This document shows, piece after piece, positions 40,683 through 44,031 of a stretch of 64,000 nucleotides of DNA. A program made the translations under genes and the position numbers. The stretch is from Cellulomonas fimi (GTDB lineage: Bacteria > Actinomycetota > Actinomycetes > Actinomycetales > Cellulomonadaceae). The DNA lies in the NCBI RefSeq assembly GCF_028583725.1, contig NZ_CP110680.1:3472001-3536000 (forward strand). The letters run 5' to 3'. The notes under the pieces were generated by a model. That model was not told where the DNA came from, ran no database searches, and was given only the letters and a program-made list of their open reading frames with translations. Each line of letters begins with the position of its first letter. Position 1 is the first letter of the stretch.

Positions 40683-41243
40683 CTACCAGCACCACCCGAC
40701 CGTCAGCGGCTCCTCGCGCAGGCGGCGCTCCGCCGCCCGTCCCGCCGGGCTGAGGAAACGCATCATCCGCAGGTCCGGGCTCGGTCCGTCCGCGCCGTCC
40801 TCGACCGTCCCGCCCGGGCACGTCGACCAGCCGGACCGGGCGTAGAACGACTCGAGCGACGGAGCGCAGAACAGCCCGGCGACGTCGAACCCGCCCCCGT
40901 CGACCAGCGCGCCGGCCGCGCGCAGCACGGCGGACCCACACCCCTCCCCGCGGTACGGCGGAGACGTGACGACGCTGGCGACGCCCGCCACGCGCAGTCC
41001 GGTCCGGTGCACCTCGTCCGGCACCCGCAGCACGACCGCGTGGGACAGCAGCACCTCGCCGTGCCGCAGCACGACGTACCGGGGTGCGACGTCGTCCTCG
41101 AACGGGCGCGTGATCCAGCGCAGGCCGCCGTCGAAGAGCCCGGGCCACTCGCTGCGCATGAGCGTCACGGCCTGCCACGTCACCGACTCGGGCACGTCGT
41201 CGTCCGTGAAGACCTCGACCGTCGTCCCCGCCACGCTGCCCAT
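40683..41243 (-). CDS. GNAT N-acetyltransferase, distantly AAC(2')-like
   Basis: A 186-residue GNAT fold: beta strand HAVVLRV, then VAGVASVVTSPPYRGEGCGSAVLRAAG with the acetyl-CoA loop (R/QxxGxG-type RGEGCG), and LFCAPSLESFYARSGW. Overall length, the ARxxYxxRGW-like segment and a C-terminus ending in Trp recall aminoglycoside 2'-acetyltransferases of mycobacteria. Identity is too low to claim that activity by eye. The ATG is at 41243. A tRNA gene lies upstream on the same strand. Confidence 0.85.
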   Translation of the reverse strand: MGSVAGTTVEVFTDDDVPESVTWQAVTLMRSEWPGLFDGGLRWITRPFEDDVAPRYVVLRHGEVLLSHAVVLRVPDEVHRTGLRVAGVASVVTSPPYRGEGCGSAVLRAAGALVDGGGFDVAGLFCAPSLESFYARSGWSTCPGGTVEDGADGPSPDLRMMRFLSPAGRAAERRLREEPLTVGWCW

Positions 41244-41331
41244 GCGCGGACGGTAGGGGCGGGGGTGCGGAAATGGGAAGTCGTCGACCGACCGAGCACG
41301 ACCCTCCGGCCGGTCGGGGACGGCCGCGCGG

Positions 41332-41405
41332 TGCCCCCGCCGGGGCTCGAACCCGGACTGGGCCGGGTTTAAGCCGGCTGCCTCTGCCGATTGGGCTACG
41401 GGGGC
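41332..41405 (-). tRNA. tRNA with UAA anticodon in a class I (short variable arm) body
   Basis: A 74-base cloverleaf. Acceptor stem GCCCCCG/CGGGGGC with discriminator A73, U8-A9, a D-arm with a three-pair stem and GG in the loop, anticodon stem GCCGG/CCGGC with loop CUUAAAC (anticodon UAA at 41371-41369), variable loop of five bases (CCAGU), T-stem CCGGG/CCCGG and T-loop UUCGAGC. CCA is not encoded. UAA should read the leucine codon UUA, but bacterial leucine tRNAs are class II with a long variable arm, and this one is not. Its amino-acid identity is therefore uncertain. Confidence 0.85.
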
Positions 41406-41494
41406 ATCGTCCACCACCCGCCGCGAGCGGCACGGCGGTCGGCGCGCACGCTCATCCTGCCAGCGGTCCGACCGGGCGTGTCGGTGGTCGCGTC

Positions 41495-41500
41495 TAGGGT
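41495..41500 (+). promoter_or_regulatory. Probable -10, leaderless hydrolase gene
   Basis: TAGGGT, seven bases before the GTG at 41508, with no Shine-Dalgarno. Confidence 0.5.
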
Positions 41501-41507
41501 CCGGCGC

Positions 41508-42329
41508 GTGCACATCGAGGAGCGCGGGGCCGGGATGCCCGTCGTGATGATCCACGGGTTCGGCGTGGATCACCGGATCATGCTGCCGCTCGACCCGGTG
41601 CTCGCCGGGCACGGGCCGTGGCGACGGCTCTACGTCTCGCTGCCGTGGACGGACCGCACGCCGCTGGGCGCGATCCGGAGCAGCGAGGACGTGGCGGCGG
41701 CGCTGCGCGACGCGGTGCGCGCACGGCTGGGCGACGAGCCGTTCGCCGTCGTCGGCAGCTCCTACGGCGGCATGCTCGCCCGCCGGCTCGCGCACGACCT
41801 GCGCGACCAGGTGCTCGGCCTCGCGACCGTGGCGGGGCTCTGGGCCGGCGAGGTCGACGCGCGCGTGCTGCCGCAGCGCACCGTGCTCCGCGAGGACCCG
41901 GCTGCGCTCCGCGACGTCGACCCGGTGGTCGCCGCCGGCTACCGCGCGATGGCCGTCGTCGAGTCGCGGGCGGGCCTGGACGCGTACCGCCGCTTCGTGC
42001 AGCCGGGCGAGGACGCGGCGGACCAGGGAGCGCTCGACACGCTGCGCGCCCGGTACCCGTTCGACGTCGAGCCCGAGGACGCGTCGCCCGAGCCGTTCAC
42101 CGCGCCGACGCTCGTGCTGTGCGGGCGTCAGGACCACGTGGTCGGGTACGCGGACGCGTGGCGGCGGCTCGACCACTACCCGCGCGCGTCGTACGTGGTG
42201 CTCGACGCGGCCGGGCACAACGTGCACCTGGACCAGCCGCGCGCGACCGCCGCCGCGCTGGCGGCGTGGCTCGACGAGGTCGCCGAGGTCTCGCGCTCGC
42301 GTCCGGCGGTGGTCCCGGCCGGGGCCTGA
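41508..42329 (+). CDS. Alpha/beta hydrolase
   Basis: A 273-residue alpha/beta hydrolase: HGFG oxyanion loop (IHGFGVDHRI), nucleophile elbow GSSYGG, catalytic Asp in LCGRQDHVVGY and His in AAGHNVHLDQP. A lid segment follows strand 6. The substrate is unknown. The GTG start lies seven bases after TAGGGT and has no ribosome-binding site, so the mRNA is probably leaderless. It is monocistronic and converges on ndh through a shared terminator. Confidence 0.9.
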   Translation: MHIEERGAGMPVVMIHGFGVDHRIMLPLDPVLAGHGPWRRLYVSLPWTDRTPLGAIRSSEDVAAALRDAVRARLGDEPFAVVGSSYGGMLARRLAHDLRDQVLGLATVAGLWAGEVDARVLPQRTVLREDPAALRDVDPVVAAGYRAMAVVESRAGLDAYRRFVQPGEDAADQGALDTLRARYPFDVEPEDASPEPFTAPTLVLCGRQDHVVGYADAWRRLDHYPRASYVVLDAAGHNVHLDQPRATAAALAAWLDEVAEVSRSRPAVVPAGA

Positions 42330-42456: not shown

Positions 42457-43959
42457 TCAGCTGGCGCTCTTCGCGGCCTGGCCGCTGCCCGTCGACTGCT
42501 GCTTCTCGGCGGGCGAGCCGGCCTCGGCCTTCTGCGGCGGCAGCGCGGCGGTGTCGACCGCGCGCGGCTTCGGCGGGACGGCCGCGGCGCGGAACTCGGC
42601 GCGCGGGTCGTGCACCGAGCCGAGCGCCACGACCTCGCGGCGCAGCAGGATCGAGCCGGTCCAGCCGGCCATGATGCGCAGCTTCCGGTTGATCGTCGGC
42701 ATCGCGTACACGTGGTACGTGCGGTGCAGGAACCAGGCCAGCACGCCGCGGACCTTGATCTTGCCGAACATCTGCGCGACGCCCTTGTACATCCCGAGGG
42801 ACGCGACGGCGCCGATGTTCTTGTGCTTGTACTCGGTCAGCTCGGCCGAGCGGAGCACGCGCGCCAGGTTGTCGCCGAGGTGCTTGCCCTCGCGGACGGC
42901 GTGCTGGGCGTTCGGCGGGCAGAAGGCGCCCGGGTTGTAGAGGTCCGGCACGGCGGCGCAGTCGCCCGCGGCGTACGCGTCGGGGACGACGGTGCCGTCG
43001 GCGTCGACGACCTGCAGGAACGCGTCGGTGGTGACGCGGCCCATCTTGTCGAGGGGCAGGTCGGACTGCTGCAGGACGGGGTTGGCCTTGACGCCCGCGG
43101 TCCAGATGATCGTCTCGGCGTCGAACTCCTGGCCGTTCGACAGCACGACGTGCCCGTCGACGCACGAGTTGAGGAACGTCGAGAGGAAGATCTCGATGTC
43201 GCGCTTGCGCAGCTGCTCGAGCGTGTAGCCGCCGAGCTCCTCGCTGACCTCGGGGAGGATGCGCGGCGAGCCCTCGACCAGCACGAACCGCAGCTCGTCC
43301 TGCTCGATCTGGTTGTAGTGGCGCACCGAGTAGCGCGCCATGTCCTCGACCTCGGCGAGCGCCTCGATGCCGGCGAACCCGCCGCCGACGAAGACGAACG
43401 TGAGCATCCGCTTGCGGAGCTCGGGGTCCCAGGTGCTGGAGGCGACGTCGATGCGGTTCAGCACGTGGTTGCGGACCGCGATGGCCTCCTCCACGTTCTT
43501 GAAGCCGATGCCCTGCTCCGCGAGGCCCGGGATGGGCAGCGTGCGGGCGACCGAGCCGAGGCCGACGACCAGGTGGTCGTAGGTGATCCAGTACGCGTCG
43601 CCCTCCTCGGGCGTGATCTCCACGGTCCGCTCGGCGTGGTGGATCTGCGTGACCTTGCCCTGCAGCACGTCGACGCCCTTGAGGGCGCGGCGGTGCGGGG
43701 CGACGACGTTGCGCGCGTCGATCGAGCCGGCCGCGGCCTCGGGCAGGAACGGCGCGTACGTCATGTACGGACGGGGGTCCACGACGACGATCGCGGCCTC
43801 ACGCTTGCCGAGGCGCTTGCGCAGACGGCGGGCGGTCGTGAGGCCGACCGAGCCGCCGCCGAGGATCACGACGCGCGGGACCTTGCGGGGCTTGCCACGG
43901 GGGACGACCGCACCGGCCGCGGGTGCGGCGTCGACCGGGGTCTGGGCAGAAGTCGGCAT
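42457..43959 (-). CDS. ndh: Type II NADH dehydrogenase
   Basis: A 500-residue single-subunit, non-proton-pumping NADH:quinone oxidoreductase. Two Rossmann folds are seen: FAD site VVILGGGSVGLTTARRL (about residues 29-45) and NADH site FVFVGGGFAGIEALAEVEDM. The AAGDCAAVPD motif binds FAD, and the quinone-site region CPPNAQHAVREGKHLGDNL follows. A C-terminal amphipathic/hydrophobic stretch (GVLAWFLHRTYHVYAMPTINRKLRIMAGWTGSILLRR) should tether it to the membrane, and a ~60-residue Ala/Pro/Lys tail follows. The ATG at 43959 has TGGAG close ahead. Confidence 0.95.
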   Translation of the reverse strand: MPTSAQTPVDAAPAAGAVVPRGKPRKVPRVVILGGGSVGLTTARRLRKRLGKREAAIVVVDPRPYMTYAPFLPEAAAGSIDARNVVAPHRRALKGVDVLQGKVTQIHHAERTVEITPEEGDAYWITYDHLVVGLGSVARTLPIPGLAEQGIGFKNVEEAIAVRNHVLNRIDVASSTWDPELRKRMLTFVFVGGGFAGIEALAEVEDMARYSVRHYNQIEQDELRFVLVEGSPRILPEVSEELGGYTLEQLRKRDIEIFLSTFLNSCVDGHVVLSNGQEFDAETIIWTAGVKANPVLQQSDLPLDKMGRVTTDAFLQVVDADGTVVPDAYAAGDCAAVPDLYNPGAFCPPNAQHAVREGKHLGDNLARVLRSAELTEYKHKNIGAVASLGMYKGVAQMFGKIKVRGVLAWFLHRTYHVYAMPTINRKLRIMAGWTGSILLRREVVALGSVHDPRAEFRAAAVPPKPRAVDTAALPPQKAEAGSPAEKQQSTGSGQAAKSAS

Positions 43960-44031
43960 ATCTCCACGGTATCCGCCGCCGTCGAACCACGCCGTCCGGT
44001 GGACGGTGACGCTGCGCACACGGGCTGGGAA

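Follow-up and report, generated by a model that had tools for sequence, protein, structure and literature searches.

The tRNA gene at positions 41332 to 41405 on the minus strand of the window (i.e. the whole 64,000-nucleotide stretch of DNA analysed here) very probably encodes a working tRNA-Leu that would decode UUA, and possibly UUG by wobble. Judging from its sequence features, the one leucyl-tRNA synthetase (LeuRS) of the cell would charge this tRNA with leucine though it has no long variable arm, and short-armed class I and long-armed class II forms would replace each other in evolution, one isoacceptor at a time.

ARAGORN calls a tRNA-Leu(taa) at 41330-41405 (minus strand), the full Rfam model RF00005 matches 41332-41405 on the same strand with 54.2 bits (cut-off 29; E 7e-09), and both agree that this is the sole tRNA of the window. 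The gene measures 74 nt up to the discriminator A73 and carries, by ARAGORN and from its sequence, the anticodon UAA (41369-41371, minus strand) within the loop CUUAAAC (41367-41373). All pairs of the acceptor (7/7), anticodon (5/5) and T stems (5/5) are in place. The D arm (tRNA positions 10-25; 41380-41396, minus strand) consists of a three-pair stem with C13-A22 left open, and of a loop with A14, A15, G18, G19 and one extra base (20a), a layout also seen in the class II tRNA-Leu of the same genome. The variable loop, CCAGU (41357-41361, minus strand), contains a U48 that is able to pair with A15 and comprises five nucleotides, in place of the 10 or more that define a class II variable arm. 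At the 3' end, CCA is encoded in part only (CC then G, as read from the sequence). A preliminary description of this DNA had given the same coordinates, 74-base length, UAA anticodon, cloverleaf shape, five-base variable loop and fully paired stems except for the D stem, all of which we can confirm; the strand, which is minus, was absent from it. The cloverleaf is not the minimum of a single-sequence RNA fold, and the call as a tRNA gene therefore rests on the Rfam match and on the covariation presented below.

The genome comprises 4,486,221 bases in one contig and has 45 RF00005 matches; ARAGORN, applied to the stretches around these, returned 45 tRNAs. Five of them are leucine tRNAs, of which CAG, GAG and TAG belong to class II (15-base variable region) and CAA and UAA to class I. 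The class I tRNA-Leu(CAA), located at G000:C1:2364574-2364647 (G000 being the genome of the window; locus L176), matches the UAA tRNA in the layout of its D arm. The premise of the preliminary description that bacterial tRNA-Leu are class II thus fails here, as both UUR leucine tRNAs are class I. A separate class II tRNA-Leu(UAA), for which it had advised to look, was found neither by Rfam nor by ARAGORN nor by a class II UUR tRNA pattern, which had zero matches in the genome, so that the UUR box is left to short-armed tRNAs alone. This is hard to reconcile with the orphan tRNA considered beforehand: there is no class II tRNA-Leu(UAA) in the genome to do the job, and the CAA partner is itself class I.

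In the passages of Giege and Eriani (PMC9976931) that deal with leucine, E. coli identity is attributed to A73, A15-U48, G18G19 and A20a; leucylation in E. coli did not correlate with how the long arm folds or with its sequence, and variants without anticodon and variable arms stayed active in leucylation. According to the same passages, human mitochondrial tRNA-Leu(UUR) is charged without a long arm, essentially via A73 and A14 (PMC9976931). That tRNA, likewise a UUR leucine tRNA lacking the long arm, is organellar and has a weak anticodon branch, whereas the tRNA described here is bacterial and has G+C-rich stems. When tested against the E. coli elements, the UAA tRNA proved to have the discriminator A73, A14 and A15-U48, as well as G18 G19, A20a, the three-pair D stem and the open 13-22, the latter set matching the class II tRNA-Leu of the genome. 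Of the 45 tRNAs, none but the five for leucine unite A14, A15, U48, open 13-22 and A73, in a comparison table that merges three Met tRNAs, which have G15. LeuRS presumably recognises A73 together with the corner into which the D loop, the T loop and A15-U48 fold, elements that the UAA tRNA has retained throughout, and if this is what LeuRS reads, the variable arm would be dispensable. With A73, A14, A15-U48, G18G19 and the extra D-loop base intact, a misacylated tRNA, a genetic-code oddity or a molecule that LeuRS does not accept, as suggested in the preliminary description, would not be expected.

Simple identity outside the anticodon arm gave the best scores with the class I CAA tRNA (28), Arg-UCU (28), Lys-CUU (27) and Arg-ACG (27), and by this measure the class II leucine tRNAs do not resemble the UAA tRNA any more than Arg, Lys, Asn or Thr tRNAs do; unlike the UAA tRNA, however, Arg-UCU, Lys-CUU and Arg-ACG have 13-22 paired. 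The UAA tRNA may thus have arisen either through deletion of the arm or by recruiting a different class I tRNA. With the class II leucine tRNAs of its own genome the UAA tRNA shares A14, A15 and the open 13-22, yet its variable loop has five rather than 15 bases, and it has C13 and C12-G23 where the CAG and GAG tRNAs have G13 and G12-C23.

As for conservation, a DNA search produced matches in 94 of 98 genomes (own included). Throughout the genus (60/60 genomes), the class I UUR pattern was recovered, as UAA in 58 and as CAA in 56 genomes. Those without a patterned UAA are G013 (89% complete) and G014 (99% complete), the latter having a UAA tRNA by DNA search and ARAGORN, which brings the gene to at least 59 of the 60. 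In this G014 tRNA-Leu(UAA) (L335; G014:C1:2683768-2683842), G occupies, by our reading, both 15 and 48, the A15-U48 pair is broken, and the molecule is possibly decaying or compensated. A patterned CAA is missing from four genomes, two of which (G039, G047) carry a class II CAA, while G046 and G054 are 81% and 61% complete, respectively.

The class I pattern scan extended to at least 119 loci. Because its pattern fixed most of the D arm (A14 and A15 included), this arm was to some extent bound to look invariant, whereas U48, A73, the variable loop and the remaining stems were left free. Of the 149 loci L001-L149, 146 have a UAA tRNA according to ARAGORN (L003 being that of the window; none in L086, L131 and L134). 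Among the matches listed, the 146 UAA tRNAs (own included) have U48 without exception, and A73 and a five-base variable loop in 145 cases each. Setting aside the 75-nt tRNA of L143 and merging duplicates left 105 distinct 74-base UAA sequences (own included; among the matches listed), in which 2094 of 2100 helix cells are paired, with many two-sided changes. This rules out a chance fold and, along with the presence of the class I UUR pattern in 60/60 genus genomes, contradicts the earlier idea of a degraded copy. Named loci with a class I UAA tRNA derive mostly from Actinomycetota, namely Mycobacterium, Nocardia, Rhodococcus, Corynebacterium, Arthrobacter, Microbacterium, Pseudonocardia and others.

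Upstream of the gene, starting 57 nt before it, lies the element TGGCAGGATG (41453-41462, minus strand), a candidate -10-like promoter sequence. TGGCA[GC]GAT is found at most 110 nt upstream of the tRNA in 27 of 30 genus loci (own included), and a locus of 1.9-3.1 kb contains GGCANGAT 0-3 times on the tRNA strand; in our reading, TGGCA[GC]GAT might be the promoter -10 region. Scans of 41230-41600 for a sigma-70 consensus promoter and for a terminator returned nothing. Among the neighbours of the tRNA gene, at 40683-41243 and 42457-44019 of the window and both on the minus strand, are a GNAT acetyltransferase and a pyridine nucleotide-disulphide oxidoreductase. For the divergent frame at 41513-42329, Pfam gave no match at E 0.001, and the flanking protein at 41391-42329 had no relative in a scan of viral contigs.

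To view the two classes across the phylum, we sampled 296 of its genomes, for which a completeness of 90% or more had been requested; named relatives such as L098 and L114 point to Actinomycetota as the phylum and to Cellulomonas as the genus. The class I UUR pattern was present in 84 of them (UAA in 71, CAA in 27, both in 14, leaving 13 with CAA alone), and the class II UAA pattern in 138. Not one of the 71 genomes with a class I UAA also had the class II form, where ∼33 of the 296 would have been expected to have both if the forms were independent, in a calculation that ignores relatedness. These exclusion counts rest on strict patterns and related genomes, and both the zero overlap and the figures 71, 13, 14 and 27 were taken manually from the pattern-search rows; in 87 of the 296 genomes neither UAA pattern was found, so the patterns miss some. 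A reversed-pattern control hit one genome in the class I search (G174) and one in the class II search (G235). For CAA, where class II counts per genome were obtained as class II UUR matches minus class II UAA matches, both classes coincided in two of the 27 phylum genomes (G328, G372) and in the genus genome G004. Besides, both UAA forms exist within one genus, in different species, in at least three genera (g138, g132, g87). Zero co-occurrence is what would be expected if each form does the same work, and the class I and class II UAA tRNAs are best read as two interchangeable forms, the short one standing in for the class II tRNA-Leu(UAA); either of them may have come first.

The CAA gene offers an instance of exchange at one slot. 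Class II UUR tRNAs were detected in three of the 60 genus genomes and are CAA in each case, G039 and G047 having no class I CAA by pattern and G004 having both. A stretch of ∼4.85 kb lies ahead of the class II CAA gene in G047 and, in the same orientation, ahead of the class I CAA gene in G003 (two aligned pieces, 86% identity); 2.2 kb of it is found before the class I CAA gene of the window's genome as well, at 77.5%. Beyond the CAA tRNA, no alignment exceeded the thresholds. The flank of the CAA locus is present in G039, too, yet inverted relative to the tRNA, and the CAA locus of G017 (L339) had no flank in common with other CAA loci above the alignment thresholds. Beyond the CAA tRNA of G003 lies a protein with an integrase-core match below the Pfam cut-off, and island traffic may therefore have brought the class change.

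One LeuRS over the family cut-off (975 aa) was found in the window's genome, and it is 81% identical to its counterpart in G003 and 82% to that in G047. LeuRS is a single full-length gene in these three genomes and appears as two overlapping pieces in G039 and as three in G004. As genomes with a class I and with a class II CAA each have a single LeuRS of 81-82% identity, the same kind of enzyme appears to serve either class, and the class swaps represent a natural experiment on what LeuRS reads. A more far-reaching claim, for and against which we see about equal weight, is that the class of tRNA-Leu is freely exchangeable in Actinomycetota, with repeated replacement, separately for UAA and CAA, within genera, at one slot and under one unchanged type of LeuRS. 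The long arm would then not be under leucine-specific selection, and the UAA form, persisting in the genus of the window with almost no codons to read, would be a short-armed counterpart of bldA.

The preliminary description was right in holding UUA codons to be extremely rare. There is none among the 14,127 codons of the 35 genes called in the window, and strict gene calls (978 genes over 1.664 Mb, or 37% of the genome with the window counted in) contain 15 UUA among 404,020 codons, next to 443 UUG and 133 CUA, by a simple reading-frame caller with a G+C-by-position filter whose strict setting favours G+C-rich third positions. A relaxed set of 97 further frames, many of them doubtful, added 10 UUA among 32,653 codons. 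The caller often sets starts too early and retains spurious frames; since 11 of the 15 UUA codons lie no further than 130 codons into their frames, each read from its earliest possible start, true UUA use may be lower. With UUA nearly absent, the need for a UAA tRNA is not obvious, and the gene may be kept for UUG wobble, for a few UUA codons elsewhere, or for bldA-like control. The latter would make it a leucine-charged regulatory tRNA retained chiefly to gate a few UUA-bearing genes, which we deem rather unlikely. It has the anticodon UAA in common with class II tRNA-Leu(UAA) such as Streptomyces bldA, and the loop CUUAAAC in common with the class II UAA tRNAs of the family f21 genomes (6-10 Mb), which we take to be Streptomyces. 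A very rare cognate codon is a bldA-like trait as well, and the combination of a gene in at least 59 of 60 genus genomes with next to no UUA fits such a role, but the strict calls over 37% of the genome contained no convincing UUA-bearing regulatory gene, and the 11 codons close to the first possible starts may be untranslated. Either way, a regulatory role adds to a working leucine tRNA and does not oppose it.

A tRNA charged with a different amino acid would misread UUA, and by D-arm sequence, Lys, Asn and Thr tRNAs of the genome come nearest to the UAA tRNA. This scenario strikes us as very improbable, since 13-22 is paired in all three, the D arm is one base shorter in Lys, Asn and two of three Thr tRNAs, and the discriminators are G73 in Asn and U73 in Thr (Lys has A73, like the UAA tRNA). 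Nor is UAA an anticodon of theirs, and recognition by LysRS and AsnRS depends on the anticodon. The absence of genomes with both UAA classes among the 296 of the phylum speaks against mischarging, too, as do the Corynebacterium loci that also carry a class I UAA tRNA; Corynebacterium genomes use UUA more. Barely credible is the idea of a pseudogene or of a mobile-element remnant. Similar sequences do reside in 20 phage records, 14 actinobacterial plasmid records and the tRNA arrays of two metagenome-assembled genomes (MAGs), and the genome hardly uses UUA. However, the gene is conserved across the genus, its stems are paired, an upstream element precedes it, no other UAA tRNA was found in its genome, and the four flanking proteins that were scanned contain no phage domain. 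Two of the 20 phage records were checked and hold class I tRNA-Leu, with anticodon CAA in Corynebacterium phage StAB and UAG in Streptomyces phage WRightOn (loci L328 and L329).

A working tRNA-Leu without the long arm runs counter to common usage. In reviews, a long variable arm is given as the rule for leucine tRNAs, tRNA-Leu being listed under class II (PMC7609411), and the tRNAscan-SE 2.0 paper treats a missing arm as a sign that an apparent human tRNA-Leu or fungal tRNA-Ser belies its anticodon (PMC8450103). Should short-armed forms prove to be the norm across much of a phylum, such reasoning would misjudge working genes. In searches of open-licence literature, from which most subscription papers are absent, we came across no source that explicitly assigns the UUR leucine tRNAs of actinobacteria to class I; ARAGORN plainly calls such genes tRNA-Leu, so specialists may know them. 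For M. tuberculosis, a passage of PMC11541572 describes long variable loops "especially" in Leu-2, 3 and 5, with 5 as the highest Leu number, which suggests two short-armed leucine tRNAs in this organism. From the class I UAA genes in our Mycobacterium loci, we infer that these may be the UUR ones. Genomes of the Mycobacterium mucogenicum clade have, according to another source (PMC6582537), a tRNA-Leu(TAG) with a short variable loop in a tRNA cluster. There, it is an extra copy beside a normal long-armed one, whereas the genome studied here yielded no UAA tRNA other than the short one.

Outside Actinomycetota, the class I pattern was found in 16 of 119 Planctomycetota genomes, including G389, for whose own locus ARAGORN confirmed the call. 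MAGs of Chloroflexi and Pyrinomonadaceae have class I UUR tRNAs in arrays, and in each of the two MAGs the class II UUR pattern matched at least once. In these arrays (L091 and L097, with 15 and 21 tRNAs in 8 kb, respectively), class I tRNA-Leu(UAA) and tRNA-Leu(CAA) are adjacent, the class II UUR matches lying elsewhere in the genomes. The CAA locus L331 has one flank, in common with L338, that includes an ANTAR response regulator, while the other flank varies among CAA loci (an HTH/integrase-core protein in L338, a PIN-domain protein in L339), in the manner of an island insertion site. Of note, at locus L332 (contig C69 of G004), a class II tRNA-Leu(CAA) and a class I tRNA-Leu(GAG) occupy 85-169 and 173-246 on the minus strand, three bases apart; by our own reading, position 33 of the latter is C instead of U. 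This arrangement may reflect an exchange of class within the CUN box, or the two genes may be mobile as a pair.
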